NCBI RefSeq assembly: GCF_014193425.1 | Contig: NZ_JACHZG010000001.1 | Coordinates: 1,426,001 to 1,490,000 of the forward strand | DNA: 64,000 nt | DNA from: Microlunatus antarcticus | GTDB taxonomy: Bacteria; Actinomycetota; Actinomycetes; Propionibacteriales; Propionibacteriaceae | Direction of reading: 5' to 3' | In this document: piece after piece, positions 2,791 through 19,351 of the stretch | Layout of the letters: each line of letters begins with the position of its first letter | Position numbering within the stretch: the first letter of the stretch is position 1 | Notes under the pieces: model-generated | Databases searched by the model: none | Told to the model about the DNA's origin: nothing | The model's input: the letters and a program-made list of their open reading frames with translations, nothing else | Translations under genes and position numbers: made by a program

Positions 2791-2843
2791 GCGACCGTCC
2801 TGCGGAGCACGCAAGCCGACCGTCGTGCGAGACACGCGGGAGC
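2791..2843 (+). repeat. Two 25-bp hairpin repeat copies upstream of the sigma factor
   Basis: One copy has a C instead of G in the left flank (GACCGTCCTGCGGAGCACG). The second is diverged in its loop (GTCGTGCGAGACACG). They lie between the divergent lipoprotein and sigma factor genes. Confidence 0.75.
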
Positions 2844-2978
2844 CGTGCACCGGGGCGCGGGTTGGCGGGTAGGACTCGATGTCGTGACTTTCGGGAGGGT
2901 GACAACCAATATGAGTCGAGGCACCGTCTAAGGGGAGAGGCCGAAGCCGGCCGTGGTGTCGAGGTGGGCGGTGATGGG

Positions 2979-3467
2979 GTGCAGCGAGACGAGGCGTTCA
3001 CCGCGTTCGTCGTGGCGCACCGGGACCGGTTGTTAAGGGCTGCATACCTGATCTGCGGCGACGCGTCGCGAGCCGAGGACGTCACGCAGATCGCGTTGTC
3101 GAAGCTGTACGTGGCGTGGCCGCGGGTCGAGGGCAGTCACGAGTGGTTCGCCCGGACGATCATCGCGAGGACGGCGGTCGATGAGAGCCGCCGGCCCTGG
3201 CGGCGAGAAGTCTCTGTCGCTGACCACGACGAGCTTGCCGTTCTCGACGCAGCGGGGAACGTAGCCATCCGGATGACGTTGCGCACGGCGTTGTTGATGC
3301 TCCCGCTCCGGCAGCGACAGGTGGTCGTGCTGCGGCACTACTGGGGCCTACCGGTCCGAGAGACGGCCGACATCTTGGCGCTGTCGCCAGGCACGGTGAA
3401 GAGCCACGCCTCGCGGGCGCTGAAGCGGCTCAACGTGTTGCTGGTGCTTGAGGAGGTTGGTGACTGA
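2979..3467 (+). CDS. SigE-family RNA polymerase sigma factor (ECF type)
   Basis: The product is 162 aa from GTG 2979; GTG 2964 is the alternative. A longer open frame upstream only translates the repeat copies and is not coding. Region 2 reads DEAFTAFVVAHRDRLLRAAY ... LICGDASRAEDVTQIAL. Region 4 reads LLMLPLRQRQVVVLRHYWGL ... TADILALSPGTVKSHASRAL, a sigma-70 r4 helix-turn-helix. Its length and motifs match the actinobacterial SigE subfamily that replaces the main sigma factor at stress promoters. The stop overlaps the start of the next gene (TGATG), so the two are translationally coupled and the neighbour is probably its membrane-bound regulator. Confidence 0.85.
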   Translation: MQRDEAFTAFVVAHRDRLLRAAYLICGDASRAEDVTQIALSKLYVAWPRVEGSHEWFARTIIARTAVDESRRPWRREVSVADHDELAVLDAAGNVAIRMTLRTALLMLPLRQRQVVVLRHYWGLPVRETADILALSPGTVKSHASRALKRLNVLLVLEEVGD

Positions 3468-4123
3468 TGCCGGTGCCGCTGGAGGACTCACTCGACGAGC
3501 ACGCCTTCGATGGCGAGTTCGCAGCCCTCCCCGAAAGTCATAACCCCCTCGCTGACCTCGAACGAGGGCGTCGGCTTCAACGCACTCAGAGGCGACGTCG
3601 AGCGGTAGCGCTGGGTTGCGTCACAGCGGCGCTGGCAACCACCGGCCTGATCCTTGCGCCGTCGATCGGCGAACGTACCGCTGTGCCGGCAGGCCCCGTA
3701 CCAACGGCTTCTACGCACCCGGCACCCGCGACGTCGCCGTCTCCGACGCCAACCACGTTGACGACCCCGCCTAGTGACCAGCCTCAGGACGGACCCTGCA
3801 TCGGGACGGTGCGACTCGTCGGGCCGACGAGTGACGTCGTGCAGCTCACGCCCAACAGCACGTCGACGGTCCGACTCCGGGTCGGTGACACGTTGCGGCT
3901 GGAGGCGGACGGCGGCTGCGGATCGGCAGTGATCATGTCGTCCCAAAACGAGTCGGTGTTGCGTACCGCCGACGCACACACAGTGAGAGCGGTCAGGGTC
4001 GGTTCGACCCGTCTGAGCGCCGGGCACGCGATGTGCGCTGACCTGCCGCTGGCGCAGCAGCCGGGCTGCATCGGTGGCGTCGCCACCGACGGCGAGGTGG
4101 ACGTCGTGGTCGTTCCCAGCTGA
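3467..4123 (+). CDS. One-TM envelope protein coupled to the sigma factor (possible anti-sigma)
   Basis: The product is 218 aa. A strong GAGGAGG site lies about 10 nt before the ATG, which overlaps the sigma stop. The cytoplasmic N-terminus (residues 1-45) ends in a basic patch RTQRRRRAV. It is followed by one membrane segment (ALGCVTAALATTGLILAPS), a Pro/Thr/Ser linker and an extracytoplasmic domain with four Cys (DGPCIG, GGCGS, AMCADL, PGCIGG) that could form disulfides. No ZAS zinc motif (HxxxCxxC) is present, so the anti-sigma role rests on gene order and topology only. The same pairing recurs at 19.3-21.2 kb. Confidence 0.65.
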   Translation: MPVPLEDSLDEHAFDGEFAALPESHNPLADLERGRRLQRTQRRRRAVALGCVTAALATTGLILAPSIGERTAVPAGPVPTASTHPAPATSPSPTPTTLTTPPSDQPQDGPCIGTVRLVGPTSDVVQLTPNSTSTVRLRVGDTLRLEADGGCGSAVIMSSQNESVLRTADAHTVRAVRVGSTRLSAGHAMCADLPLAQQPGCIGGVATDGEVDVVVVPS

Positions 4124-4180
4124 TGGCGAACGCCCCCAGGACCGGTCAGTAGACCAGGCTGGCGCGGCCTCGTAAGCGGA

Positions 4181-4241
4181 CCGTCGTGCGGAGCACGCAA
4201 CCCGACCGTCGTGCGGAGCACGCAAGCCGACCGTTGTGCGG
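4181..4241 (+). repeat. Two full and one cut 25-bp repeats at the left IS junction
   Basis: Two intact copies are followed by a third (ACCGTTGTGCGG) that stops at about 4241, inside the hairpin loop, where the IS110 element begins. The missing right half (AGCACGCAAGCC) reappears at 5548. Confidence 0.85.
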
Positions 4242-4252
4242 TTTCTCCTATG

Positions 4253-5318
4253 TCAAGCCGCTGCCGCTAGGCGTGGCGCTGCAGCGTCCTGGTCGGTGTG
4301 GAGGTGGCCGTAGACGACGCGGACGAGACGGCGTTTGAGGCAGCGCAGGGCTTCGGGGTTGGACATGCCTTCGGCCTTCTTCTTGCGGTAGTAGGCCTGC
4401 CCGAGCCCGTCGAGGCGGATCTGGGTGATCGCGATCCGGTGCACAGCGGCGTTGAGCTGGCGGTTGCCGGACCGGGTCAGCCGGACCCGGCCTGCGGTGT
4501 TGCCCGACCAGACCGGGATCGGCGCGATCCCGGAGTGCCGGGCGAACGCGGCCTCGGACTTGAACCGACCGACCCCGGCGGCTTCGCCGACGATCTTGGC
4601 CGCGGTGAGCGGGCCCACGCCGGGCATCGCGAGCAGCGTCGGTGCGACCTGCACTGTCCGCTTCTCGATCCGCTTGGTCAGCGTGTTGATCTTGTCGGTC
4701 AACTCGATGATCTCGCCCAGCTCAGCAGCAGCGAGCTCAGCGACCAGGCCGACGACACCGTCCTCCACGACAGAGCCCAGGCGGGCCTTCAACGCTTGCT
4801 GGTACTTGGACAGGTCCAGCGACTTGGCTGGTGGCGACCACCCCGGGTCGAGTTCGTGGGACACGCCACAGCAGCCGGTTGATCGTGGCCGTTCGTGTCG
4901 TGACGAGGTCTTCTCTGCGGTCGACGAGCAGCTTCAGCTCGCGTGAGGTCGCGTCGTGGGAGGCGACGGGCAGGTCGGGTTCGCGCAGCGCAGCCCGCGC
5001 GACCGCAGCGGCGTCGATCGGGTCGGACTTGCCGCGCGTCCGTGCAATGCGGCGCTGCTCGGCCATCATCTTCGGCGGCACGCGGACCACCGCCTGGCCA
5101 TTGGTGAGCAGGTCGCGCTCAAGCCGGGCCGAGAGGTGGCGGCAGTCCTCGATCGCCCACCGCAGCTCAGGGCCGAACGTCTTGCGCGCCCACCTAACCG
5201 CGGCTCGGTGGCCCTCGGTCGTGGCCGGGAACGTCTTGTGGCCCAGCTCGCGGGCCGCCTCGTCGACCCCGACGAACGTGTGGGTCCGCTTGTGAACATC
5301 AGCACCAACGACAACCAT
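4253..5318 (-). pseudogene. IS110 transposase, broken by a one-base frameshift
   Basis: The start is the ATG at 5316-5318, behind GGAGG (MVVVGADVHKRTHTF). The N-terminal DEDD RuvC-like part shows GADVHK, WAIEDCRH and GKSDPIDAAAVARAAL. The C-terminal Transposase_20 part (LLAMPGVGPLTAAKIVGEAA, then SGNRQLNAA) lies in another frame. The two meet near 4863-4870, where RLLWRV should run into HELDPGW. Removing one C from a CCC run restores a single frame of about 355 aa. IS110 transposases are not known to use programmed frameshifting, so this is a decayed copy or a sequencing slip. The frame is otherwise intact, so the event is recent. Confidence 0.8.
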
Positions 5319-5337
5319 GAAGGCTGCCTCCTTCACT

Positions 5338-5547
5338 CAGAAGAGGGACGGTTGGGCCGGTCGGCGGACACATCTCAGTGGGGGCGGTGCCACGCTCCTA
5401 TCAAGTCACGCCGGCCGGTCCTTCACACCGGTCGCCAGCAAAACCGAACGAGGCCAACCCCGAAGAGCGACAAGCACGCAATGAGCCAGACGACCGGTGC
5501 TCAGGACCCAACCACCGCATCGGCGGCGCTGTCACTCTCACACTGAG
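5338..5547 (-). ncRNA. Candidate IS110 bridge RNA region
   Basis: This is the non-coding end upstream of the transposase. On the + strand, 5473-5481 reads AGCACGCAA, identical to the right half of the target repeat at 5548. Just beyond it, CGACCG and GTGC (about 5490-5500) resemble the left half. Positions 5394-5405 (GCTCCTATCAAG) resemble the opposite end of the element at 4245-4257 (CTCCTATGTCAAG, seven identical then a 2-nt offset). On the minus transcript the target-like part precedes the donor-like part, the order known for IS621-type bridge RNAs. The folding was not computed. Confidence 0.5.
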
Positions 5548-5577
5548 AGCACGCAAGCCGACCGTCGTGCGGAGGAC
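5548..5577 (+). repeat. Right half of the interrupted repeat plus one further copy
   Basis: AGCACGCAAGCC completes the copy cut at 4241. It is followed by ACCGTCGTGCGGAGGACG, a copy with a mutated right stem. Confidence 0.8.
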
Positions 5578-5650
5578 GTATGGCTGGTCCAGACCGTGCC
5601 CGTGACGGCAGCCGCGCGCAGGAGACAATGCATACATTAGGTGGACGACG

Positions 5651-6037
5651 GTGGTGGCGGCCTCCGCACTCCTTGTGCTCGCCGCTTGCGGAGGCCCACC
5701 TACCCAGACTGTGCAGCGCGCGCAGGGGACCGTGATGCTGGTCGCGCCTACCAAGCCTGACGCCGTGATGTTGGCCGGTATCGGAGGCGTCCTGACCCGG
5801 ACTCCGCTGGGCTGCATGATCCTAGACGTCGGGGATGGCGAGGAGACACTCACCCAGTTTCCGTACGGCAGCACGCTCACTGCCGACGGTCAGGGCGTCA
5901 CGCTTCCTGACCAGACCACGGTGCACATAGGCGGCAGCATCTCGGGGGCCGGAGGAATAGGCGACCCAGGAGGGCTGAAGCATGTGCCGCTGCAGTGCGT
6001 GAGCGCGACAAGGGTCCTCTACCTACAAGCCGCCTGA
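5651..6037 (+). CDS. Putative lipoprotein of unknown function
   Basis: The product is 128 aa from GTG 5651. It begins VVAASALLVLAACGG, so the lipobox LAAC puts the acylated Cys at about residue 13. The usual basic n-region is missing in this frame. An out-of-frame ATG at 5628 would supply one (MHTLGGRRW), so the true start may be hidden by a small indel. The mature part has repeated beta-like segments and two Cys (LGCMIL and LQCVSA). No family is recognised. It is followed by a convergent membrane protein gene. Confidence 0.5.
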   Translation: MVAASALLVLAACGGPPTQTVQRAQGTVMLVAPTKPDAVMLAGIGGVLTRTPLGCMILDVGDGEETLTQFPYGSTLTADGQGVTLPDQTTVHIGGSISGAGGIGDPGGLKHVPLQCVSATRVLYLQAA

Positions 6038-6053
6038 CCGGGCGTCGCCAACG

Positions 6054-6515
6054 TCAATCCCATACGTGCGCTGCCTCGTCGGGCTCGCTGATCGAGTTGC
6101 GTCGGGTCGTGACGACCGGAGCGGACATGAACGCGACTGCGAGAGCCACAGCGGCACAGACCGCGACAGCAGGGGCGTCGAACACTCCGAGCACGAGTGC
6201 GACCCCGACGACAGCGAGTGCCGCCGCGAAGCTTCCTGCTAACCAGGCCAAGCGCAGCCCCTTGCCCTCGACGGCCTGATAGACGATCACCGCGGCCAAT
6301 GCTGCCGGCAGTGCGACGAGTGCGCCGACCAGAGCGGCGAAGCCGACGGTCGCCCAAGACCGATAGGCGCCGTCACTGGCCTGCAGAGCAGCGCCTAGGA
6401 CTGCTCCTCCAACAACGCCGCACCCGATCCCGCGCCGCAGGATCGACCACGGAGGCCGCAGTGCCCGGCCACGCGGGGCGTCAAGCCACCATGCAGCTGT
6501 CAGGACCGCCATCAT
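6054..6515 (-). CDS. Four-TM integral membrane protein
   Basis: The product is 153 aa. Hydrophobic segments lie at about residues 28-45, 55-78, 87-107 and 112-131, separated by short loops with a basic stretch near residues 13-28 (PRGRALRPPWSILRRG). The C-terminus is short and charged. No active-site or transporter motif is visible. Two ATG codons stand in tandem at the start (6510-6515) without a clear ribosome site. It is convergent with the lipoprotein gene, 16 bp apart, and is probably a single-gene unit. Confidence 0.55.
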   Translation of the reverse strand: MMAVLTAAWWLDAPRGRALRPPWSILRRGIGCGVVGGAVLGAALQASDGAYRSWATVGFAALVGALVALPAALAAVIVYQAVEGKGLRLAWLAGSFAAALAVVGVALVLGVFDAPAVAVCAAVALAVAFMSAPVVTTRRNSISEPDEAAHVWD

Positions 6516-6629
6516 GAAGCGAACTTAGACCAGCACCCTCGGCCGCTCCGCCTGCTGCAGACAGGCAGCACCACCACGTGCGGGATCGCGTGCCAATGAT
6601 CATCGCCCGGACGCTCGAAAGGCAGCTCG

Positions 6630-6672
6630 TGGGAGGCACGCAAGACCACCGTCATACGAGACACGCGAGGCG
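6630..6672 (+). repeat. Diverged 25-bp repeat copies
   Basis: Degenerate copies (GGAGGCACGCAAGACC, then ACCGTCATACGAGACACGCG) lie in the 265-bp gap 6516-6780. Nothing else was seen in that gap. Confidence 0.5.
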
Positions 6673-6780
6673 ATCTGGTCGGCGGTGCCCGCACGGCACC
6701 CTTCTCGTGACCCGCGCTCAACCACCCCCGCTGACCGATTCGAGGTGGAGTGTCGGTATCACCTCCGCTTAGGTTGAGGC

Positions 6781-7698
6781 GTGGAAGAGTTCGAGCTCGC
6801 TCGCGCTGGGGCGGCGGCCCTGGCGGTCGCGGCATCGCTCGATCTGCCGGCCGACGACGCCGTCGTTCTCTTCAACTCCAACAAGGTGGCGCTGCGACTC
6901 GAGCCCTGCGACGTCCTTGCCCGGGTCACCCGCGCCGGACACGGCGGCGAGGCCCGACTAGAGCTAGACCGTGCCCTGTCGCTCGCTGGCGCTGGCTGCC
7001 CGGTCGGCGCCGCACTGCCAGGCGTCGCGCCGCTGGTGCACGAAGAAGCCGGATTCGTGGTGACGTTGTGGACTTACCACGACACGGCAGCCTGTCCCGT
7101 GACAGCCGATGCCTACGCAGCAGCGCTGGGTCAGCTGCACGCCGGGATGCGCACGGCCGACTTGACCAGCCCGCGGTTCACCGACCGAATCGCGGAGGCC
7201 CAGCAGGTCGTGGCAGACCCGGCTCTCTCACCCGACCTCGCTCAGGAAGATCGAGCGTTGCTCACCAGTCGACTCGCAGCCCTACGACAGACCATCCTCG
7301 AGTTCGACGCACCTGAGCAGCTGCTCCATGGCGAGCCGCACCCCGGCAACGTGCTCGGGACCAGGCAGGGCCCGGTCTTCATCGACTTCGAGACCCTCTG
7401 CCGCGGGCCCGTCGAGTTCGACCTCGCGCACGCTCCCGAGGAGGTGTGTGAGCACTACCCGGGCATCAACCGCGAGCTGCTGGACCTTTGTCGCCAACTC
7501 GTCCTGGCCATGGTCGCGTCTTGGCGCTGGGACGTCGGCGACGAGTTCCCGAACCGCCAGTACTGGCGACGCGCCCTGCTGCACGCTCTGCGCGAGAGGC
7601 TCCCTTGGCCAAGCCCGGATCTACCCATGCCAACCGTCGTGTATCAAGCGCAGGACAAGGCGGTGAAAGCTGGGAGCCGTGCGTCGGCGAGCCGATAA
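6781..7698 (+). CDS. Phosphotransferase of the aminoglycoside phosphotransferase fold
   Basis: The product is 305 aa from GTG 6781. The N-lobe includes VALRLEPCDVLARVT. The catalytic loop reads LLHGEPHPGNVL, an HGExxxxN version of the usual HGDxxxxN: the catalytic Asp is Glu here and Asn is kept. The metal-binding motif is FIDFETLCRGP, in place of IDWE/IDFG. These mark an APH/choline-kinase-like small-molecule kinase. The substrate cannot be told; actinobacteria have many such orphan APH genes unrelated to resistance. It stands alone, with a convergent gene downstream. Confidence 0.7.
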   Translation: MEEFELARAGAAALAVAASLDLPADDAVVLFNSNKVALRLEPCDVLARVTRAGHGGEARLELDRALSLAGAGCPVGAALPGVAPLVHEEAGFVVTLWTYHDTAACPVTADAYAAALGQLHAGMRTADLTSPRFTDRIAEAQQVVADPALSPDLAQEDRALLTSRLAALRQTILEFDAPEQLLHGEPHPGNVLGTRQGPVFIDFETLCRGPVEFDLAHAPEEVCEHYPGINRELLDLCRQLVLAMVASWRWDVGDEFPNRQYWRRALLHALRERLPWPSPDLPMPTVVYQAQDKAVKAGSRASASR

Positions 7699-7879
7699 CA
7701 GCGGTGAGGGGACGCGCTAGCTCCGCCCACCGGCTCCGCGAGGTTGATCCGCCCTTCACGCAAAGTCTGCTGTAGTACGGCGTCGACCGGGAGCGTCTCC
7801 GATGACGTCATAACCGGGCACCACCTGCCTCGGTCCCGCGAGGGCTTCAGGAGTTGCTGCTGTGAGGCTTGCGGACGGG

Positions 7880-8707
7880 TCAGGCGAACTGCTCAAGCGC
7901 CGGGAACACAACGTCACGCAGGTGGTCACGGATACGTCCGAGCGTCGGCATCACCGTGGCTCCATCACCCGGGCCATCTGGCGCGAACGAGAGCAAGAAC
8001 ACCGGCGGTGTCCACGTGAGGTCCATCTCCGTGTCCGGCCGATTGATAGCGACCTGCAGTCGCTGCACTTCATCACCCGTTCTGAATGCGGGCGGACGAC
8101 TCGCCGGTCCAGGAAAGTAGAGGCTTGCCCCGCCGTTGGCGTAGGTGATACCCGTGTTCGTGATCCCGCCGATAGACACCGCGAGGAGTCGCGAGCGGTG
8201 AAAGTTCCGCTCACGCAGCACGTCGAGAACAGCGAGGGGATGACGAGGCGCCGGGTCCTGACCCTGAAAAGGCTGCAGCTGCGCCACGACAGTCTGGGCA
8301 GGCGGCTCGAGGAACCGAATGCTCCGCGGCACCTCGTTGTTGTTCTTGCCGAAGTAGGCCTCGGAGGTGAGCTTGACGGGGAAGCCGACGGACCGAGCTT
8401 GCGGCTCCGAGAGAGGTCCCGAGTGCTTCTCGGCCAGGGCGGTCGTGACGAGTTCGAGACAACTGCGCAGGCTCTCGCCCACGACGAAGACTCCTTCGCT
8501 AATTTCGTCCGGCGGCTCAGAGTGGATGCTCGCGTAGAAGGCAATCTCGTAGCTGCCTACGCCGCCAACACGCTTCACATTCTCCTGCTGCACGGCGACG
8601 TGGAACGGGTCGGTTGCCAGGTAGGCGTCGACGTCGGCCTGCAGTTGGTCGAGGTGCCTGGTAGCGGACTTCAGCCGCACGTGCCATGGGTACGCCTCGT
8701 CGCTCAT
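7880..8707 (-). CDS. Uncharacterised protein, 275 aa
   Basis: The product starts MSDEAYPWHVRLKSATRHLD and is soluble with no signal peptide. The first 25 residues look like a helix that could support oligomer formation, followed by mixed alpha/beta sequence (VGSYEIAFYASIHSEPPDEI, then NGGASLYFPGP). No motif is recognised. The acidic, balanced composition and codon use support a real gene over the Arg-rich shadow frames. It is convergent with the phosphotransferase and separated by 180 bp without features. Confidence 0.6.
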   Translation of the reverse strand: MSDEAYPWHVRLKSATRHLDQLQADVDAYLATDPFHVAVQQENVKRVGGVGSYEIAFYASIHSEPPDEISEGVFVVGESLRSCLELVTTALAEKHSGPLSEPQARSVGFPVKLTSEAYFGKNNNEVPRSIRFLEPPAQTVVAQLQPFQGQDPAPRHPLAVLDVLRERNFHRSRLLAVSIGGITNTGITYANGGASLYFPGPASRPPAFRTGDEVQRLQVAINRPDTEMDLTWTPPVFLLSFAPDGPGDGATVMPTLGRIRDHLRDVVFPALEQFA

Positions 8708-9136
8708 ACTGTCGAATTCTAGGACCTGTCAGACCCCGCATGATTAACCGCCGACTTCGTACCAAGGGCATTGACGCTGATTGGAGGGTCGGAGCCACGG
8801 CTCCATCACTAGCCTGATCGGCAATCCCGTAAGCCCACCGCTGTGCGGGAGGCACGTCGAGCACAAGTGCCTGCTGGCACCTAGGGCGGGACCAAGCAAG
8901 TGGCGCATTGTGGAGCACCCCCTAGGGCAGGGTTTCAGCGAAGTGCTGTTGCTGAGGCGGCCTGCCTGTGGAGGTGCACCCCACGGCCACCGTCATAGAC
9001 GCCCCGTGGGGCATGTGGCAATTTAGTTGACCGTCGCGGCGCAGCGCGCGCTCGTTAGGCCGAAGGTGGAGTGCCAGGTTGACCTAGGGCCCTCTCGGCC
9101 ATTCGCCTTCCGCAGGTCTGGGCTGCGGGACGATCG

Positions 9137-9780
9137 ACCGTCGTGCGAGCACGCTGTACGACCGTCGTGCGGAGCACGCAAGCCGACCGTCGTGCGGAGC
9201 ACGCAAGCCGACCGTCGTGCGGAGCACGCAAGCCGACCGTCGTGCGGAGCACGCAAGCCGACCGTCGTGCGGAGCACGCAAGCCGACCGTCGTGCGGAGC
9301 ACGCAAGCCGACCGTCGTGCGGAGCACGCAAGCCGACCGTCGTGCGGAGCACGCAAGCCGACCGTCGTGCGGAGCACGCAAGCCGACCGTCGTGCGGAGC
9401 ACGCAAGCCGACCGTCGTGCGGAGCACGCAAGCCGACCGTCGTGCGGAGCACGCAAGCCGACCGTCGTGCGGAGCACGCAAGCCGACCGTCGTGCGGAGC
9501 ACGCAAGCCGACCGTCGTGCGGAGCACGCAAGCCGACCGTCGTGCGGAGCACGCAAGCCGACCGTCGTGCGGAGCACGCAAGCCGACCGTCGTGCGGAGC
9601 ACGCAAGCCGACCGTCGTGCGGAGCACGCAAGCCGACCGTCGTGCGGAGCACGCAAGCCGACCGTCGTGCGGAGCACGCAAGCCGACCGTCGTGCGGAGC
9701 ACGCAAGCCGACCGTCGTGCGGAGCACGCAAGCCGACCGTCGTACGGAGCACGCAAGCCGACCGTCATACGGAGCACGCA
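9137..9780 (+). repeat. Tandem array 1 of the 25-bp hairpin repeat (about 26 copies)
   Basis: One diverged 24-nt copy at 9137-9160 is followed by 24 back-to-back units of exactly 25 bp from 9161 and a final 20-nt partial unit at 9761-9780. Each unit is ACCGT + stem CGTGC + loop GGA + stem GCACG + CAAGCCG. Only the last two units differ (CGTACGG, CATACGG); all others are identical. There are no spacers. The preceding stretch 8708-9136 holds no gene and only a degenerate copy near 8820-8870. Confidence 0.95.
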
Positions 9781-9911
9781 GCGCTAAGGGCGAGCGGCAT
9801 AGGCGACGCTGGATCGGTGAGCGGCTTGGCCAGGACAGCACCGATCTCGGATCGGTACTGGCCGCATCGATCAACCGCAACTTCCAAAGCTCGATGGGAG
9901 AGGATTCCTCC

Positions 9912-10922
9912 GTGTTGTCCTTCGCAACTTCCCTGAGTCCCGGCGACAGGATCGGAGTGACTGCCCCGTCCGCGGGTGTAGAGGCGGCAGCGGCGCGGCG
10001 GATCAATTTTTGTGTTGACTGGCTCCGTGACGCGGGCTACGACGTAGTCGTTGGCGACTGCATGGACGGATCAGGCATCACCTCAGCACCCGCGCGGGCA
10101 CGGGCTGAGGAGCTGACGCAGATGCTGTGCGACCCCTCAATCCGCTGTGTTGTCCCGCCTTGGGGCGGCGAGACGGCGATCGACTTGCTCGACCTGCTCG
10201 ACTGGGATGCTTTGACTGCGGCTGACCCCACCTGGCTGGTCGGATACTCCGACCTTTCGACCATCCTGCTGCCGCTAACGACCCGCCTCGGTTGGGCCAC
10301 TCTGCACGGCGACAACCTCGCAGACACCCCCTATACGCCGCCATCTGGGCTGTTGCCTTGGCTGCAGATTGCCTCCGGCACCGGTCCGCACCGTCAGCAA
10401 GACTCCGGCTTGGTCGCCGACTGGTGGCGGTTCGAGGAGGACCCACAAGCTACTGTTTGGAAGCGTGTCGGCACCGGGACCTGGAGCGTTCATGGCGGCG
10501 AGTCACTCCACGTCACCGGACGCTTGATCGGCGGGTGCATCGAGACCCTGTGCAACCTGGCAGGCACGCCGTACGGCGACGTCGCCACCTTCGGCCGGAA
10601 GCACTCGAAGGACGGCCTGATCGTCTACCTGGAGGCCGCGGGGGACGAAGCCGCCACCATCTGCCGCAACTTGCACGGCCTTCGCCTCGCCGGATGGTTC
10701 GACCACGCGCGAGCAATCCTGATCGGCCGGACCTCTGCCCCGGACAATCCAGTGATGACGCAGCGCGAGGCCGTCCTCGACGCCCTGGCGCCGCTCGGCC
10801 TGCCCATCGTCTTCGACCTCGAGATAGGTCATGTGCCCCCACACCTACCGCTCGTCAACGGCGCGCTAGCCACCGTCACAGTCGAGGGCGACTGTCACGA
10901 ACTCGTGCAGGAACTTTGGTGA
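9912..10922 (+). CDS. LD-carboxypeptidase, peptidase family S66
   Basis: The product is 336 aa from GTG 9912, which has GGGAGAGGA upstream at the right distance; ATG 9894 is the alternative. The frame stays open far upstream only because it runs through the repeat array. The protein starts LSFATSLSPGDRIGVTAPSAG. The S66 nucleophile Ser is in LVGYSDLSTILLPL. The Glu and His of the catalytic triad fit VIVYLEAAGDEA and EIGHVPPHLPLVNGA. The family cleaves the LD bond of murein tetrapeptides in the cytoplasm during recycling. A subgroup (MccF) gives immunity to microcin C-type compounds; this copy fits that length too. It is flanked on both sides by repeat arrays. Confidence 0.85.
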   Translation: MLSFATSLSPGDRIGVTAPSAGVEAAAARRINFCVDWLRDAGYDVVVGDCMDGSGITSAPARARAEELTQMLCDPSIRCVVPPWGGETAIDLLDLLDWDALTAADPTWLVGYSDLSTILLPLTTRLGWATLHGDNLADTPYTPPSGLLPWLQIASGTGPHRQQDSGLVADWWRFEEDPQATVWKRVGTGTWSVHGGESLHVTGRLIGGCIETLCNLAGTPYGDVATFGRKHSKDGLIVYLEAAGDEAATICRNLHGLRLAGWFDHARAILIGRTSAPDNPVMTQREAVLDALAPLGLPIVFDLEIGHVPPHLPLVNGALATVTVEGDCHELVQELW

Positions 10923-10995
10923 GCGCCGAAGCCCGCTCGTACAGGATGGTGCTAAACGCGCTACCCATGGCAGCACGTCGCAGTCCCGACACCCG

Positions 10996-11410
10996 ACCGT
11001 CGTGCGGAGCACGCAAGCCGACCGTCGTGCGGAGCACGCAACCCGACCGTCGTGCGGAGCACGCAACCCGACCGTCGTGCGGAGCACGCAACCCGACCGT
11101 CGTGCGGAGCACGCAACCCGACCGTCGTGCGGAGCACGCAACCCGACCGTCGTGCGGAGCACGCAACCCGACCGTCGTGCGGAGCACGCAACCCGACCGT
11201 CGTGCGGAGCACGCAACCCGACCGTCGTGCGGAGCACGCAACCCGACCGTCGTGCGGAGCACGCAACCCGACCGTCGTGCGGAGCACGCAACCCGACCGT
11301 CGTGCGGAGCACGCAACCCGACCGTCGTGCGGAGCACGCAAGCCGACCCTCGTGCGGAGCACGCAAGCCGACCCTCGTGCGAAGCACGCAGAACGACCGT
11401 CGTGCGGAGC
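10996..11410 (+). repeat. Tandem array 2 of the 25-bp repeat (about 17 copies, private variant)
   Basis: Sixteen full 25-bp units from 10996 and a truncated seventeenth. The first copy has the common linker AAGCCG. The next dozen carry AACCCG instead. The last few return to AAGCCG and show ACCCT in place of ACCGT, and one has a GAA loop. The block of a shared private variant shows that this array expanded locally. Confidence 0.95.
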
Positions 11411-11489
11411 GCCGTCGAGCGGGGGAGAAGGTAGCCGCCTTCTCTGGTCGAGAGACATCTAGGTCCCGGTCTTCGGCTAGCGTCCGTGC

Positions 11490-11864
11490 ATGTCGACGTC
11501 GAGGAACACGCCCCTCTCGTGGCGCATCGAACGGGAAGTTGTTCTCACCGATAAAGCGCCGCTGGCCTCGTTGGTCTCGGTCGCGTTCGACGGCAGCGAG
11601 TACTACTTAGTGGCTCGAGGCGACATCCCGGCTGTCGTTGGGCGTCCCTTCGATCCCGAGCTCGACATCCCGATTGATCGCCTCCAGGTGTCGCTAGAGG
11701 TTGAGGGACGTCCTGCAGAGCAGTCGTCGGGCGGATCCACCGCTGACCGCGACACCTGGGAGACGCTTCAGCAGTGGGAGGGGCCCGAGCCGGCACCGGA
11801 GCTGCGTGTGACCTTGGAGCTGGACGGCAGGAGTTGCGAGTACCTGCTGACGCTGGTGACCTGA
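11490..11864 (+). CDS. Small acidic protein of unknown function
   Basis: The product is 124 aa starting MSTSRNTPLSWRIEREVVL. It is acidic, soluble and predicted beta-rich (VSVAFDGSEYYLVARGD, LRVTLELDGRSCEYLLTLVT), with no signal peptide or membrane segment. No family is recognised. No clear ribosome site precedes the ATG, so translation may be leaderless or weak. It sits between array 2 and the ApeA-like gene. Confidence 0.5.
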   Translation: MSTSRNTPLSWRIEREVVLTDKAPLASLVSVAFDGSEYYLVARGDIPAVVGRPFDPELDIPIDRLQVSLEVEGRPAEQSSGGSTADRDTWETLQQWEGPEPAPELRVTLELDGRSCEYLLTLVT

Positions 11865-11877
11865 CCTGCAGCCGTCG

Positions 11878-11945
11878 TTCGACCGCCGTGCTCAAGACGC
11901 AAGCCGACCGTCGTGCGGAGCACGCAACCCGACCCCCGAGCGAGA
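11878..11945 (+). repeat. Two to three diverged 25-bp repeat copies
   Basis: One near-perfect copy (ACCGTCGTGCGGAGCACG, linker CAACCCG as in array 2) is flanked by decayed ones. Confidence 0.7.
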
Positions 11946-12063
11946 CGTACTCGACAGCCCTCGTCGTGCAGGCGCAGCTCAGCCTGCTTGGCTTCCTCGA
12001 CAAGCGTCCGACGCCTCGGAGGCCGAACTTGCAGACGGACCTGCAACCCGCGTGCGAGCGAGC

Positions 12064-12111
12064 CGAGGAGGACGTAGATCATGAACTGGTCGAGGAGGAC
12101 GCGAATCATGA
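12064..12111 (+). promoter_or_regulatory. Duplicated ribosome binding site and start codon
   Basis: CGAGGAGGACG, three variable bases, then ATCATGA occurs at 12064-12084 and again at 12091-12111, 27 nt apart. Each has GAGGAGG 8-9 nt before an in-frame ATG (12081 and 12108), so the ApeA-like gene has two equivalent starts. Confidence 0.65.
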
Positions 12112-13565
12112 GAGCCGAAGAATTGGCGTCGCTTACCAGCGGGGTACTGGGCCGCTTCTGGACCATCGACGCAGAGCAGTCCGAACCCTTTCACGACGAT
12201 GCGGCCGTCATCGGCCAGTTGCAGCTGGTCGCTGGCGTGGTCCAGGTCAAGACACAACTGCCCGCCGCCAGCAGCCTGGCGGACCTGCACGGTGTCTTCA
12301 CGGGACTGGCCGGCGGTGTTGCACCGGCAACCCGGTGGCTGTTCGGGATTACCGAGATCGGCGAAGTCTTGGTCCCGGTTGTCACCGGAGACCGCGTCAA
12401 CCAGCAGCTGGGCGGCAATCGCGTATCGACGCACACCTACCGAGGACCATCGGTCGCCGTCTTGGTCGGCGAGGATGCCACTGGCCCTCGGGTGACCCGG
12501 CTGGCCGTGGACCTGCCGTTTGCGCGCTGGGCGGAGCTCGACCCCTTGACGAAGACGGGGCACTTCGACAGCGAGCAGCGCTGGCAGGGGCTCGACATCA
12601 CCCTGCGCGGAACCGAGACGGTGGACTGCGGACACGTCAACGACATCCAGGTGTCGCTGCGCGGCACCTGGAGCGAGACAAAGACAGACCAGGACCATGT
12701 CACCTCCGTTGCCACCGGGCTGCAGGTGATCACCGAGTCTGAGACGCCGCACGAGCACGACGACCACGTCGAAGTCGTGATGGGCGTCCAGGACCTCGTC
12801 AGCTTGGCCTACGACCGGTTCCTGCCCGCCCAGCGGGCCCAGGTCGTTTTCGAGGGAGCGGGTACGGACCGTGGCCCGACCTGGTTCTACCACCGCAGCC
12901 TCGTCGAGGAGGCGGTCCCCACCCGGGAAGAGCCGGCCGACCAGCAGAGCAAGTCGCCAATGTTCAAGCTCAACGATCTTGGCGGCGCCCCAGCAGTTGC
13001 CCGCTGGGTGGCGCTTAACCAGCAGTACCCCGACGCGGCAAACGCCATCTGGGTCCGCTACCGCACGCCCACCAACCCAACCCGTCGGATCATCGAGCTC
13101 GGAGCCGCGATCGAGCAGTACGTCGCGAGTGTCAAGGGCGAAATTAGGGCAGCCGGTGAAGGTCTTAGCTGGCCCAGCAAGTCGACGACCTATGAGGGCG
13201 CGCTGGCTCTTCACGCCGGCGCTGAGTTCGAATCGTTCGTCGAAGACGCCGAGGCGTGGGGAGAGGTCTTCCACGAGGCCTATGTCAACGAGAAGCACCG
13301 TTCAGGGCCTAGACGCCCGGCAGCCGAACTGGCACGGCTCTCGTTCAGCGCTCAGATCCTGCTCACGGCAGTGCTGCTGAATCGCGCTGCCGCCGACCAA
13401 CGCCCCAGTGAAGTTCTGCTCGCCGACCATCGCATCGACCGCATTGGAGATGCAGTCCGGGAGATCGTTCGCAAGAGCGACCAGTTCGACAGGCGCCACC
13501 CCCACACCCCCGCGGCACCCAGTGGCGAGACCATCTCCGAGGCGACAGCAGACGATGGTGACTGA
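12108..13565 (+). CDS. ApeA-like protein with predicted C-terminal HEPN domain (candidate defence)
   Basis: The product is 485 aa from ATG 12108, or 494 aa from ATG 12081. The N-terminal two-thirds follows the ApeA_NTD1 pattern: GRFWTIDAEQ near the start, IGQLQLVAGVV, TRWLFGITEIGE, then LPFARWAELD, and later GVQDLVSLAYDR before the linker. The C-terminal third is helical (ELARLSFSAQILLTAVLLNR), as in ApeA-type HEPN domains. The usual RNxxxH motif is not seen; YVNEKHR stands at about its place, so nuclease activity is uncertain. ApeA proteins are known or predicted anti-phage abortive HEPN effectors. It stands alone, between repeat clusters. The assignment is from remembered motifs and is moderate. 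Confidence 0.55.
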   Translation: MRAEELASLTSGVLGRFWTIDAEQSEPFHDDAAVIGQLQLVAGVVQVKTQLPAASSLADLHGVFTGLAGGVAPATRWLFGITEIGEVLVPVVTGDRVNQQLGGNRVSTHTYRGPSVAVLVGEDATGPRVTRLAVDLPFARWAELDPLTKTGHFDSEQRWQGLDITLRGTETVDCGHVNDIQVSLRGTWSETKTDQDHVTSVATGLQVITESETPHEHDDHVEVVMGVQDLVSLAYDRFLPAQRAQVVFEGAGTDRGPTWFYHRSLVEEAVPTREEPADQQSKSPMFKLNDLGGAPAVARWVALNQQYPDAANAIWVRYRTPTNPTRRIIELGAAIEQYVASVKGEIRAAGEGLSWPSKSTTYEGALALHAGAEFESFVEDAEAWGEVFHEAYVNEKHRSGPRRPAAELARLSFSAQILLTAVLLNRAAADQRPSEVLLADHRIDRIGDAVREIVRKSDQFDRRHPHTPAAPSGETISEATADDGD

Positions 13566-13639
13566 GGACGAGGTTGCCCCCGCGCCCGGCTGCTACCGGC
13601 CTCCCGACATCGCCCGAGTCCTTGGTCGACGCCATTGAC

Positions 13640-13782
13640 CCGACGTCGTGCGGAGCACGCACAAGCCGACCGTCGTGGGAGCACGGAAGCCGACCCTTGT
13701 GCGAAGCACGCAAGCCGACCGTCGTGCGGAGGACGCAAGCCGGCCGTCGTGCGGGACACTGCGAGGCGCCCGTCCTGCATAG
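13640..13782 (+). repeat. Cluster of about five diverged 25-bp repeats
   Basis: Copies follow each other with small indels (an extra CA, a missing C) and stem or loop changes, so the register is lost. They end just before the ribosome site of the next gene. Confidence 0.8.
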
Positions 13783-13800
13783 CCCGAGAAGGAGTTGCTC

Positions 13801-14838
13801 GTGAAGTGGTTCAAGTCGCCGAAGACGACCGCGCTGCCTGCCGCCCCGGTTTCGCCCGTCTACGCCTTCTGGTCGTGGTGGGCAGGCTCGGCGAAGGATC
13901 AATTCGCTGCTGCGATCGCTAGCGGAGCCTGGGGGGATCTACCGCAGAAGATGAGCGAGCACGTGCACGCGATCCACCCCGACCTGCAGTGGGAACTGAG
14001 CTCCGGTACTCGGGCCCAGCACACGCTGTGCGTGACCGGCGCCGGCACGCCCGAGCTGCGCCCGCTGTCTCAGCGCTGGAAGCGTGCCGCACCCCCGGAG
14101 GACCCCGTCTGGCAGTACGAGCCCGCCCGGACCCGCGACGCGACGGTCGAGGAGGCGAGCCTCGAGCTCGACGGACACAGCCTCGACCTGGGGCAGACCG
14201 TCGTCGACGCCGACCTCGACGAGCACCGACTCCGCTACAACGTCGTCATCCATCATCCGCAGTTCGCGCGTATGGACGAGCGCCAGCGTCAGCAGTTCAC
14301 GTTCCTCGTCCTGGACTGGGCGCTCGGAGAGGATGACGTCGAACGCTGGATCGGCGCTATCGAAGCGTCTGTCATCTCGCCCGCGACAGGTCAGAGCGTG
14401 ACGAACTTCGTCGAGACCGTCGACGCTCTCGCTGCTCAGCCGATCGAGGAGACATGGGTGATGATGCAGGGCCAGGACCCCGAGGGGTTGCCGGTCATGG
14501 CCATGGCCCGTCGTCCGCTGCGCTGGATCGACAGTCCGTTGCTCGACCTTCACAACAAGGTCGGTCTCACCTACCAGGCCGAACCGAACGGCCTGCCGAC
14601 CGGCGAATCGCTGGCCTGGTTGCGCGCACTGGAGGACTCGTTGGTCGCAGCCGCTGGCCCGGGCGCGGAGCTGCTCGCCCACGAGACGCACGCCGGTCGC
14701 CGGGTTCTGCACGTGTACAGCGATTCCGAAGACCAGAACGTCACCGCTCGCATCGACGAGTTGGTCAGTGCCACTCCGGGAGCTGCGGTGGACAGCAGCT
14801 TCGATCCCGCCTGGCGGGCCGTGCGTCACCTCGCCTAA
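13801..14838 (+). CDS. DUF695 / RraB-like domain protein
   Basis: The product is 345 aa from GTG 13801, with AAGGAG 7 nt upstream; an in-frame TTG at 13795 is too close to that site. The N-terminal part (WSWWAGSAKDQFAAAIASG ... LQWELSSGTRAQHTLCVTG) and the middle (NVVIHHPQFARMDERQRQQF ... VLDWALGEDDVERWIG) match the layout of the DUF695 family. The C-terminal section (GESLAWLRALEDSLVAAAG ... RRVLHVYSDSEDQNVTARI) resembles the RraB-like module often attached to it. It is a cytoplasmic protein with no known enzymatic role. It is a single gene, convergent with the HEAT-repeat gene. Confidence 0.6.
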   Translation: MKWFKSPKTTALPAAPVSPVYAFWSWWAGSAKDQFAAAIASGAWGDLPQKMSEHVHAIHPDLQWELSSGTRAQHTLCVTGAGTPELRPLSQRWKRAAPPEDPVWQYEPARTRDATVEEASLELDGHSLDLGQTVVDADLDEHRLRYNVVIHHPQFARMDERQRQQFTFLVLDWALGEDDVERWIGAIEASVISPATGQSVTNFVETVDALAAQPIEETWVMMQGQDPEGLPVMAMARRPLRWIDSPLLDLHNKVGLTYQAEPNGLPTGESLAWLRALEDSLVAAAGPGAELLAHETHAGRRVLHVYSDSEDQNVTARIDELVSATPGAAVDSSFDPAWRAVRHLA

Positions 14839-14943
14839 GGAGATCGAAAGAGGTTCGCGTCGAGCCGCCGACTTTGCCTCACCGAGTAGGCAACCCCGAG
14901 CGATCCGCGAGACGTCCAGGGCGTCTGACGATGGCTGTTCACA

Positions 14944-14971
14944 AGCCGACCGTCTTACGGAACGCCGTTTG
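14944..14971 (+). repeat. Single diverged 25-bp repeat copy
   Basis: AAGCCGACCGTCTTACGGAA lies in the 174-bp gap between convergent genes. Nothing else was seen in that gap. Confidence 0.55.
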
Positions 14972-15012
14972 CCTTCTCAGGTATGGCGATCGGGGACGTG
15001 CTCTGCAGGTTG

Positions 15013-16476
15013 TCAGCCTGGCGGCTGGAGCTGGATCCGCGCGTGGAAGGCCACGGCCATAGTCGTGGGCTCACTGACCGAGCGAGAAGCGAGGAGTGTC
15101 TGAATCCGCTTGTGTTGGTTGTCCGAGAGCTTCGCCCAGGTAGTTGCCGCGCTCGTGCTCAGCCAGTTTCGGATGCCTGACTGCCCCAGAGCTGCGACCT
15201 GGGGATCGGTGTCGGCGGCAGCACGAAGATCCGCCTCGACGCGGTCCCAGCTCCCGCCACCTCGCGCGGTCCGCCAGGCCGCGCGCCGTGTCCAAGGCTG
15301 AGGTGAAGCCCAGGCGGCTTCAGCCCGGGAAGGCAGAGCTCTCAGGCGGACGAGTGCCCGAGCGGCAGTCGAAGTCACTCGTGGGCTCTGGTCGAGCAGT
15401 GCCGTCTCGAGGGCATTGAGGACGAGGTCGGTCTGCCCGAGCAAGCTCAAGCCTGTGAGCGCGGCCGTTCGAACTGCTGCACTGGGATGACGTAGGTGGT
15501 CGATGAACACGGGGAGGTCGTCGGTCGACCCCGTCACGGCCAGACCGTCCAGGCTGGCCGCGAGCGAGCGAGGCGCCAGCGCGGCGTCGCCGATCTGGTC
15601 CCGGTAATAGGTCGCCGGCGCGATGCCTCGGCGGCGGGCACGCCAGCGGGCTTGCTCACGCACGCGGGCCGCTCGATCAAGGAGCAACGACACCAGGTCT
15701 TTGTCGACGAGGACGTCGTCGGGCAGGTAGGTCACAGCGGCGAGCCGCGCTTCGACGGAGCGCGCTGTGACGAGCTCGTGCAGCTGCTCCGTGTTCGCCA
15801 CATTCAGGAGCCACTCGGCCGCGGCCGCGCGCAGGTGCTGATCGGGGTCGGACCGGACGACGTCGAGCATCCGCTCAACCGTGAGCACCTGCTGATCGCG
15901 TGCTTCGCCGAAGGCCCACCGTCGGACAAGGCGGTCGTCGCTACGCATCAGCGTTTCGACCAGATCATTGACCGACGAACGCCCGAGGAGAGCGTCGCGT
16001 ACCGCCGACAAGGCCGCCGGTGCATGCTGACGTCCTCGACCGGTGAGCAGCACTCCGAGGACAGCGCCGGCATCGCTCGGGCCGAGAGTGGACAGGAGTG
16101 CGTGGTGAGCCTCTGCGCGCACCTGGGGTACGTGGTCGAGGAGGCGTAGAGCGAGGGCGCGGGACGGCAGGGTGCCACCCCTGTCGGCGAGCGCCCGTGT
16201 AGCTCCTTGTCGGATGCGTCCGTCGGTGTGGAAGCTGGTGAGGGCAGCGACTAAGCCCGTCGGTTCGGCGAGGTCGACCTTGAGCCATTCCTCTTGGCCC
16301 GTCACGGCAGCGGATGACGCATAGGAGAAGGTCCGACTGGCTTCGTCGAGAAGGAGCCAGGTCCTGCTGTCGTACGCCTCGAGCCGTCGACGACCGGTTG
16401 TCCAGGCCTTTGTGCCCGAACCAGTCGCGGCAAGAGCCAGCTCCGAGACGACGGTCCGCGCCTCAGACAGCGTCAT
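15013..16476 (-). CDS. HEAT-repeat protein
   Basis: The product is 487 aa from the ATG at 16474-16476 (MTLSEARTVVSELAL). The open frame continues upstream only through repeat copies. The protein is a run of helical pairs of the HEAT/Armadillo type, for instance DGRIRQGATRALADRGGTLP, DHVPQVRAEAHHALLSTLGP, DPDQHLRAAAAEWLLNVAN, HPSAAVRTAALTGLSLLGQ and SPRVTSTAARALVRLRALP. Such solenoids bind protein partners. There is no catalytic motif, signal peptide or membrane segment. It is transcribed alone, and no strong ribosome site is visible. Confidence 0.7.
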   Translation of the reverse strand: MTLSEARTVVSELALAATGSGTKAWTTGRRRLEAYDSRTWLLLDEASRTFSYASSAAVTGQEEWLKVDLAEPTGLVAALTSFHTDGRIRQGATRALADRGGTLPSRALALRLLDHVPQVRAEAHHALLSTLGPSDAGAVLGVLLTGRGRQHAPAALSAVRDALLGRSSVNDLVETLMRSDDRLVRRWAFGEARDQQVLTVERMLDVVRSDPDQHLRAAAAEWLLNVANTEQLHELVTARSVEARLAAVTYLPDDVLVDKDLVSLLLDRAARVREQARWRARRRGIAPATYYRDQIGDAALAPRSLAASLDGLAVTGSTDDLPVFIDHLRHPSAAVRTAALTGLSLLGQTDLVLNALETALLDQSPRVTSTAARALVRLRALPSRAEAAWASPQPWTRRAAWRTARGGGSWDRVEADLRAAADTDPQVAALGQSGIRNWLSTSAATTWAKLSDNQHKRIQTLLASRSVSEPTTMAVAFHARIQLQPPG

Positions 16477-16607
16477 CACCAGATCATCTTCGGGCAAGCC
16501 ACGACCCCCGTCTCCCCGATTTGGTGGACTCGGCCCGCCGAGGCCCGCCGTTCTGCTCGATGCGCCGCCGCCCACGCACCAGCAGCGGGTCCGAGGGCAT
16601 AACAAGC

Positions 16608-16665
16608 AGACCGTCGTGCGGTGCACGCAAGCCGACCGTCGTGCGGAGCACGCACACCACCGACC
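16608..16665 (+). repeat. Two 25-bp repeat copies upstream of the HEAT-repeat gene
   Basis: The first copy has a mutated loop (CGTGCGGTGCACG); the second is perfect and is followed by degraded sequence. Confidence 0.8.
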
Positions 16666-16740
16666 GCACGCACGCACGCTGGCCCGTGGCAGGACGCCTT
16701 GACGGGGGCGTGCGAGCGGGGTGAGCCGTACTGTTTCCCG

Positions 16741-16857
16741 ATGAGCACGAGGGACGTAGTGGTCGCGTCTTTGATGGTTGGGATGCTGGTCGCCGGGCTG
16801 CTACTTGGTTGGCGCTTGTTAGTCGCGCTACTGGTATCAGTGTCGCCGAGTGTTTGA
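16741..16857 (+). CDS. Possible single-TM small membrane protein
   Basis: 38 aa: MSTRDVVVASLMVGMLVAGL, LLGWRLLVALL and a short tail. Almost the whole chain is one long hydrophobic helix with a charged N-terminus. A GAGCGGGGTGAGC stretch upstream could act as a ribosome site. It is too short for codon statistics, so it may be chance. Confidence 0.3.
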   Translation: MSTRDVVVASLMVGMLVAGLLLGWRLLVALLVSVSPSV

Positions 16858-16926
16858 CGACGATGTTTCTGGGCGGAGGTCGGCTTCCCGCTGTGACAGC
16901 CGCCACGTCTTGTTGCAGAGTCCGAA

Positions 16927-16955
16927 GCGGACCGTCGTGCGGAGCACGTTGCCGA
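16927..16955 (+). repeat. Last plus-oriented 25-bp repeat copy
   Basis: GACCGTCGTGCGGAGCACGT with a changed linker. Every clear copy further right is in minus orientation. Confidence 0.75.
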
Positions 16956-16985
16956 CCACTGGATGGGCATGTGGCGTGCGGTCTC

Positions 16986-17633
16986 TCAGCGCATGGTCGC
17001 GAGCTCAGCGAGCGGCACCGGCTTCCGCGAGCACCGGCTGATGTCTTGTCCCTGCTCTGAGAAGAGCGGCGGGTACACGGAGAGCCCGTGGTCAGTCGGC
17101 AGGCTCTGCACCTCCGCCTCCCAGCCCTCCCACCGCAGGTCCGCGTAGAAGCCGGAAAAGGCACCAGCGAGAAGAGCGTGCATGAAGCTTGAGTGAGCCA
17201 TGCCAGTGCTGTCCCAGTTCAGCGTGTCGGGCGCCCAGTAGCAGACCTCACCGGGGGCGAAGCCAAGTCCGCCGCCGTTAATGGCGAACACCCCGCCCAG
17301 CACGTCCAAGGCCACGACCAGCAGCGCCGGCGGCTGGCTCTCGGCCGTCGGCTCCCCGAGACCGTTGGCGAACGCCAGGTCGGGCAGTCCTGCTGCACCT
17401 GCGCCGAGTACCTTCACCCAGCCGTGGTCGACCTCGAGCGCACCGCAGTTGAGGGCAAGCGCTCCAAGCGTCGAGCGCGTGGTCACCTGGAGTCGGTACA
17501 GCGTTTGTCGTCCGTCCTCAGGCAGCGCTGGATGCATGCGGACGGGGACGAATGCCTGGTTTATGCGCTCGACGAGACCCGGCCACGCCGCATCGCGGTC
17601 GCCGGCCAGCTCGTCAACGCTAAGCAGGGGCAC
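16986..17633 (-). CDS. DUF2625 family protein
   Basis: The product is 215 aa if the start is the GTG at 17631-17633. The longer open frame upstream is Arg/Cys-rich and unlike protein. Family landmarks are clear: DAAWPGLVERINQA, LYRLQVTTRSTLGALALNCG, VDHGWVKVLGAG, VVALDVLGGVFAINGGGLG, VCYWAPDTLNWDSTGMAHS, GFYADLRWEGWEAEV and a C-terminal SRKPVPLAELA. DUF2625 proteins are cytoplasmic, of unknown function, and are scattered in Gram-negative and actinobacterial genomes. It is divergent from the recombinase gene, with 365 bp between them holding only that gene's palindrome. Confidence 0.75.
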   Translation of the reverse strand: MPLLSVDELAGDRDAAWPGLVERINQAFVPVRMHPALPEDGRQTLYRLQVTTRSTLGALALNCGALEVDHGWVKVLGAGAAGLPDLAFANGLGEPTAESQPPALLVVALDVLGGVFAINGGGLGFAPGEVCYWAPDTLNWDSTGMAHSSFMHALLAGAFSGFYADLRWEGWEAEVQSLPTDHGLSVYPPLFSEQGQDISRCSRKPVPLAELATMR

Positions 17634-17983
17634 CTGACCAGTATCCGATCCGCGAAGGCCGTCGACTGCGCAGCAGCACAGTCGGGCGCCACCCGAGCAT
17701 CGCCAGTGACGCATTGCCATTCCTATGTTGTAGGCGAGCACCTCGGCGTCAGGACTCGGGCTGAGACTTCGACACCTCCCCATGGGCCTCTTCGAACAGC
17801 GCCCTGCCCGCGAGCAGCAGCGCCTCCGCCCGCAGGAGGACCACCGACAACACCCGCAGCCACGTCTCCGTAGCCGTCCCTCAAGCGAGAACGAGCAGAC
17901 ACGACGCCCGAGAGTCGGCGCCGCGCTGAGCGTGAGTCTCGTAAGACCCGCCCGCAAAAAAGCCCGGTCAACGGGGTTGTTAC

Positions 17984-17996
17984 GAACACACTGTTC
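17984..17996. promoter_or_regulatory. GAACA-CAC-TGTTC palindrome touching the recombinase start
   Basis: A perfect inverted repeat of 5-bp arms with a 3-bp centre ends two bases before GTG 17999. It leaves no room for a ribosome site, so transcription may be leaderless, or the site may be bound by the recombinase itself (autoregulation or part of a res site). Confidence 0.4.
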
Positions 17997-17998
17997 AA

Positions 17999-19322: not shown

Positions 19323-19351
19323 CGGTCGTCTTGCGTGCTCCGTAACGACGG

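Follow-up and report, generated by a model that had tools for sequence, protein, structure and literature searches.

The 64,000-nucleotide stretch of Microlunatus antarcticus DNA analysed here (the window; C1:1426001-1490000 of a 4.37-Mb draft genome in 18 contigs) contains an insertion element of the IS110 group that splits one unit of a 25-bp hairpin repeat. We consider it very probable that this element carries a bridge RNA programmed for the repeat and that it descends from an actinobacterial clade programmed for the starts of leaderless genes. The RNA encoded by its left end would address the hairpin repeat of the surrounding genomic island through the target-binding loop, and the element would have entered the repeat by RNA-guided recombination, without duplication of the target. 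In the ancestral clade the left guide would correspond to the -10 box (TANNNT) of the host gene and the right guide to its start codon. Four properties of the sequences carry this reading: the fold of the RNA, the covariation of guides with flanks, the anatomy of the target sites and the nesting of the window copy among its relatives.

The element and its probable address in the repeat

The repeat ends at 4240 as GCCGACCGTTGTGCG and resumes at 5547 as GAGCACGCAA. Rejoining the halves yields an intact 25-mer with no bases lost and none duplicated; the borders carry a 1-bp ambiguity, a G being common to both sides. An earlier interpretation made from the letters alone (the sequence-only reading) had placed the cut at 4241 and the resumption at 5548: the interruption stands, and the exact borders have moved by 1-2 nt. 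Target duplication is likewise absent in a relative, L045, whose joined flanks align gap-free at the junction with the empty site in genome G170. For L043 the empty site in G092 (L157) was set aside because of its poor alignment at the junction.

Both family domains, DEDD_Tnp_IS110 (PF01548) and Transposase_20 (PF02371), are present in two frames, and the ends are asymmetric as is typical of the IS110 group, with ~210 nt of non-coding DNA upstream of the transposase gene versus ~12 nt beyond the C-terminal open reading frame (ORF). As most of the relatives read have a single-frame transposase, either the frame of the window copy is interrupted near 4860 or the assembly contains an error at that place. 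Because of the broken frame, the window copy is probably inactive. Its own genome holds one full copy, one left-end relic and one doubtful end of ~10 nt; two further Transposase_20 matches (three in total, one being the window element) belong to other IS110-type elements. The named hosts of the relatives are Actinomycetota.

For the fold, 32 left ends were picked by hand from 53 that differ by at least 12 bases. Their consensus structure consists of a 5' stem-loop, a target loop and a donor loop, the canonical layout of a bridge RNA. Standard pairs make up 99.1% of the pair cells, 12 of the 57 pairs are changed on both sides, on each of five measures all 500 shuffled alignments stay below the observed value, and sliding the structure lowers the paired share to 28-48%. 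Both target guides are unpaired and lie on the two sides of the internal loop of the target loop, the left one within alignment columns 74-85 and the right one within columns 109-120. Rfam release 15 gave no match in the window at gathering scores, lower scores not having been searched.

The left target guide had been noticed as a segment, AGCACGCAA, matching a target half; it is present as described (coordinates of all features are given in Table 1) and matches the repeat at 9 of 9 positions. CGACCG and GTGC (near 5490-5501), which the sequence-only reading took for a match to the left target half, belong to a conserved stem of the target-binding loop and are ruled out as a guide. The real second match is the right target guide CCGAACG, which agrees with the repeat consensus at 6 of 7 positions. 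The reported likeness of CTCCTATCAAG (5395-5405) to the far end CTCCTATGTCAAG (4245-4257) was recovered, both segments being present, and the donor guides agree with the two ends of the element itself (ATAGGAG and CTCAGTG are shared), which is a match of sequences that are nearly invariant on both sides.

The 137 kb round the window contain 117 sites at which the left guide matches 9/9 and the right guide at least 4/7; at 90 of them the right guide matches 6/7. The same 137 kb read backwards, serving as a chance control, gave no site with 9/9 and more than 3/7. Exact TTGCGTGCTCCGCACG occurs 48 times in the window, bearing out the proposed abundance of potential targets, and 88 times in the 137 kb. 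The repeat 20-mer within 2 mismatches is found 166 times genome-wide and 0-3 times in each of 19 congeners.

The left-end relic lies at C1:3238 kb (91% identity over 191 query bases, ~20 of them flank). It adjoins the repeat half GGCTTGCGTGCT, and its right end is missing. Its guides are TTGCTTGCT and CGTGCGG, the latter matching the repeat perfectly. Since the window copy and the relic sit at the same repeat half, this lineage probably inserted there at least twice. The proposal that the repeat is a guide-encoded landing site is therefore backed by the fold, by this relic and by the guide-flank covariation in relatives described below. As the usual address of such elements the repeat holds for the window copy and the relic but not for most of the relatives read, which sit at leaderless gene starts.

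At L031:2537 a repeat half is followed by CTCTTAGTGTCA, possibly a third left-end remnant, though at ~10 nt too short to count. In the congeners G099 and G107 there are a few copies of the repeat, with no element end beside them in the seven loci read.

Insertion sites and guides of the relatives

The comparison covers 88 element sequences: 8 of the window's family (window included) and 80 kept of 110 confirmed in a pattern-based scan. Five lack a readable left end, and 68 of the remaining 83 have a right end of the form CTTGACATAGGAGNANC. This search form excludes other forms; the distance limit also cost two usable right ends, those of L091 and L110, each of which precedes ATG/GTG. Removal of short, N-holding or duplicate flanks left sets of 70, 57, 56 and 52.

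Two nucleotides after the right end stands ATG in 41 of 57 distinct flanks, GTG in 9, TTG in 3 and CTG in 1 (ATG/GTG in 50/57); at offsets 0, 1, 3 and 4 ATG/GTG/TTG occurs 1, 0, 1 and 1 times. The reading frame from the start codon stays open for at least 50 codons in 44 of the 50, and 50 of 52 sites restored by joining the flanks have the start codon. TANNNT is located 5-9 nt upstream of it in 40 of 50 restored sites, with a spacing of 6, 7, 8 and 5 nt in 22, 13, 4 and 1 sites, respectively; correction of the left ends of L081 and L082 puts TANNNT at 7 nt there and raises the total to 42/50. The background is 18 of 446 crudely defined ORF starts and, at 6-8 nt, 148 of 23,577 ATG/GTG triplets of the same loci.

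A second sample was drawn from genomes of the class and of the phylum, of which 9 of 394 and 10 of 396, respectively, had a match (last pattern base G or C). The 12 and 14 places found were reduced to 22 by removing the window and two genomes seen twice; the flank in G509 is identical to that of L123 over 13 bases. Seventeen of the 22 right ends stand before ATG/GTG. Left ends were unreadable at 9 of 14 loci, TANNNT precedes the start codon by 6 nt at all three readable loci that have one, and the remaining two (the window and one other) have neither a start codon nor TANNNT.

The insertion sites of the relatives are thus best read as the starts of leaderless genes, at which the left guide would read the -10 box and the right guide the start codon. 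In Mycobacterium tuberculosis, as described in PMC3898074, the centre of a TANNNT motif lies 7-12 bp upstream of the transcription start, and the start codon forms the 5' end of many transcripts. The sites of the relatives share this leaderless anatomy, as judged from sequence rather than from mapped transcription starts.

The distance from the -10 box to the cut is not fixed. An identical guide, GTAGCGTCGCT, is found at ten sites. Nine of these belong to a single M. triplex genome and hence are not independent in guide. Across the ten sites the guide pairs at 10, 11 and 12 nt from the left end, while wherever the right end was read the start codon remains two bases away from that end, so the gap between the -10 box and the cut floats over 3 nt.

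Guides and flanks change together. Over 70 distinct flanks the left guide matches its own flank at 7.53 of 10 positions on average versus 4.87 in shuffled pairings (0/10,000 as good), and the right guide at 5.46 of 8 versus 4.38 (0/10,000, n=56). Right-flank bases +1, +2 and +3 each covary singly (0/2,000 each), +4 and +5 are constant, and +7 and +8 have no clear covariation. At the 45 sites with TANNNT in both guide and target, which span 14 guide and 17 target hexamers, 124 of 135 free bases match versus 63.8 shuffled (0/20,000); with each of the 20 distinct guide-target pairs taken once, 53 of 60 match versus 23.1 (0/20,000). The left and right target guides covary with the flanks on opposite strands, as is characteristic of a bridge RNA.

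Such a pattern might also be a product of survival. Insertion would then be loose, only copies lying between promoter and start codon or in a non-coding repeat would persist, and the likeness of the guides would be secondary; insertions ahead of start codons or in intergenic repeats are indeed mild, and the AGGAG in the right end would soften the damage. We find this improbable, as the guide bases follow the free -10 positions over all those hexamers, the distance to the start codon is base-exact in 50/57, and in the wider clade guide and left flank also agree in members whose right ends differ (matches of 10: L113 9, L114 8, L115 10, L119 9, L124 9, L140 9, but L147 only 5). Subsequent capture or gene conversion of flanking DNA into the loop, with the guide playing no part in the choice of site, would likewise yield guide-flank similarity and could be the route by which guides are rewritten. 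The occurrence of identical GTAGCGTCGCT at ten different sites, matching 5 to 9 of 9 positions, and the opposite polarity of left and right guides, as required for base-pairing of a bridge RNA, make it very unlikely. Just as hard to credit is recognition of the -10/start-codon signature by a protein with RNA uninvolved: near-constancy of the TA..T and ATG bases on both the guide and the target side is no proof by itself, but the variable bases covary, and relatives at 71-77% DNA identity have different targets with different loops.

Copies at unrelated sites had been named in the sequence-only reading as evidence that would speak against it. To the letter, relatives do sit elsewhere; their guides, however, differ correspondingly, which supports programming.

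Variation in right ends or flanks accompanied by other guides was seen in L113, L114, L115, L119, L121, L124, L126-L135 and L140. The variants are AGGAGCTA, AGGAGCAA, AGGAGCAAC plus TT, and most of the scored members match their own left flank. The right flank of L140 may still contain ATG.

With the relatives read as programmed for leaderless starts, insertion would have consequences for the host gene. In the inserted state the host -10 box has its first base 9-12 nt upstream of the left end, so transcription would start at the first bases of the element, and this box, now directly before the element, may drive the guide RNA and the transposase. The right end CTTGACATAGGAGAAAC is present in 56 of 68 rows with an end of the form CTTGACATAGGAGNANC, and its AGGAG falls 6 nt upstream of the start codon that the insertion displaces. 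Of the 50 native sites 5 have a 4-base Shine-Dalgarno core, versus 50 of 50 after insertion; AGGAG may thereby let the displaced gene be translated from read-through RNA. A promoter across the circle junction, known in the IS110 family (PMC11208160), is predicted here as well: in TTGACA-N17-NANNNT the A and T are invariant in 44 of 44 distinct left ends and the middle three bases are variable.

Sixty-three transposase N-termini (150 residues) were placed in a tree, in which the window copy is nested within a group of seven (support 97/89); the other members are five leaderless-targeting elements and one with its right end unread. This nesting suggests that the window copy was probably retargeted naturally, both guides having changed from a leaderless start to the repeat. 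A fuller picture can be drawn, for which we judge the chances to be even: the clade would be addressed to the definition of a leaderless gene, its guides reading the -10 box and the start codon across a floating gap that tolerates natural promoter spacing; the host promoter would be taken over for the guide RNA and transposase, and the gene turned into a Shine-Dalgarno gene by the lent AGGAG; the window copy would have left this niche, its loop rewritten for an island-specific hairpin repeat.

Several points weigh against the proposed programming and descent, for which the evidence is computational throughout. The right guide matches only 5/7 at the window's own insertion site. Folded singly, the window end with its flank does not stand out (z -1.43; 14 of 200 shuffles do equally well), so the support for the fold comes from the alignment. 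Among the left guides, 12/70 match at 5/10 or less with three registers allowed; L086 and L096 of these reach 8/9 in a wider register, and L081 and L082, which share one flank, had a misplaced left end. TANNNT was scored absent at 10/50 start-codon sites (8 after correction), the ORF-start background for it is crude, and 5/22 right ends of the second sample lack a start codon at the expected place, one of the five being off by one base. AGGAG, which is also part of the donor half, is conserved in members with other right flanks and is therefore not evidence of selection for Shine-Dalgarno function. The tree rests on 150 residues, and its bootstrap is not settled. Finally, donor and target have no visible core dinucleotide in common (target -2,-1 equals donor AC in 7/70 and target +1,+2 equals donor TC in 13/52; a single base, C at -1, is common to both in 39/70), whereas IS621 is described as having a CT core (PMC11208160). 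In the absence of a visible shared core, we take the elements to work in an IS621-like manner but do not call them strict members of the IS621 type.

Surroundings of the element

Table 1. Positions of the element, its guides and the repeat in the window
Feature	Position	Strand	Basis or remark
IS110-group insertion element	4241..5546	-	Repeat interruption; left and right ends conserved in relatives
Left piece of interrupted 25-bp repeat	4226..4240	+	Sequence
Right piece of interrupted 25-bp repeat	5547..5556	+	Sequence
Bridge RNA	5347..5527	-	Extent predicted from the fold and the predicted junction promoter
Left target guide TTGCGTGCT (AGCACGCAA on +)	5473..5481	-	5' side of target-binding internal loop
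Right target guide CGTTCGG (CCGAACG on +)	5444..5450	-	3' side of target-binding internal loop
Left donor guide CTTGATAGGAG	5395..5405	-	Resembles the element's right end CTTGACATAGGAG
Right donor guide CACTGAGA	5373..5380	-	Reverse complement of left-end TCTCAGTG
Right end CTTGACATAGGAGAAAC	4241..4257	-	Donor half, Shine-Dalgarno-like AGGAG, TTGACA (4251-4256) as -35
NANNNT, -10 of predicted circle-junction promoter	5534..5539	-	17 nt from TTGACA across the junction
Transposase ORF, DEDD (RuvC-like) N-terminal part	4737..5336	-	PF01548, E 3.6e-27; frame broken near 4860
Transposase ORF, Transposase_20 C-terminal part, other frame	4253..4864	-	PF02371, E 1.6e-20
Field of 25-bp hairpin repeats (singles, pairs, tandem arrays), potential targets	2793..31869	.	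Sequence

The island, C1:1392-1515 kb (L034, L035, the window, L036 and L037), opens with a tyrosine integrase (L034:3586-4698), which adjoins two tRNA genes (L034:2933-3092); another integrase is located at C1:1515154. Loose copies of the repeat, with up to 4 mismatches, number 184 in C1:1388-1525 kb. Perfect or near-perfect tandem arrays with exact 25-nt spacing occupy positions 9160-9760, 10995-11370, 28236-28461 and 30194-30394 of the window. An array at ~7388-7543 of L034 starts with CGTAAGCC and ends with GGCTTACG, outer inverted arms thus surrounding the tandem repeats.

Between 20613 and 25530 of the window small minus-strand ORFs alternate with same-orientation repeat pairs in a gene-cassette-like arrangement; 4 of the 7 small ORFs have no Pfam match at E 0.01. 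An integron reading of the repeat field was considered, but the recombinase at the edge is the tyrosine integrase beside tRNA genes, with a phage or island look. The ORF at 12081-13565 matches ApeA_NTD1 modestly, though above the threshold; this domain is known from anti-phage defence.

Relation to known systems

The window element represents a known type of system. Like IS621 (Durrant et al., 2024; PMC11208160), it belongs to the IS110 group, with a recombinase of DEDD and Transposase_20 domains, and its long left end would encode an RNA with one loop for the target and one for the donor; in each loop the 5' side would pair with the bottom strand and the 3' side with the top strand. Insertion into repeated palindromes (REP in the case of IS621) and a promoter rebuilt across the circle junction are further likenesses. 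Unlike IS621 (PMC11208160), most of the relatives read target leaderless promoters and start codons rather than a repeat, and the spacing between the -10 box and the cut varies. The main text of the IS621 report (PMC11208160) contains none of the terms start codon, ribosome binding, Shine-Dalgarno and leaderless.

The seekRNA of ISEc11 and ISEc21 (Siddiquee et al., 2024; PMC11187229) is similarly a non-coding RNA with two target-matched stretches. Its targets are different, and the text on target logos in that report (PMC11187229) mentions neither promoters nor start codons as targets. For ISEc11/ISXne4 the same report describes a natural change of target between related elements (PMC11187229). 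Targeting of leaderless promoters by IS110 elements was not found in the titles and abstract openings of open-licence literature.

IS900 is a member of the IS110 family. In Mycobacterium avium subsp. paratuberculosis it is reported to target translation initiation signals, and its motif CATGNNNNNNTCTCCTT reads as a Shine-Dalgarno sequence plus start codon (PMC8141618). Unlike this, 45 of the 50 natural sites of the present clade have no Shine-Dalgarno core, 40 have a -10 box, and AGGAG is brought by the element. The address of the clade as such was not found in the literature searched.

Overall, the relatives provide many natural guide-target pairs for one bridge-RNA clade, with 70 distinct sites and 14 different -10 guide hexamers, and a natural retargeting step between related elements is indicated. 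The suggested targeting logic (promoter plus start codon, a flexible gap and no visible shared core) lies outside the rules derived from IS621. The floating gap and the missing core, if real, would widen the design rules for bridge recombinases, and the Shine-Dalgarno loan, if real, would be an unusual route to near-harmlessness for a mobile element.
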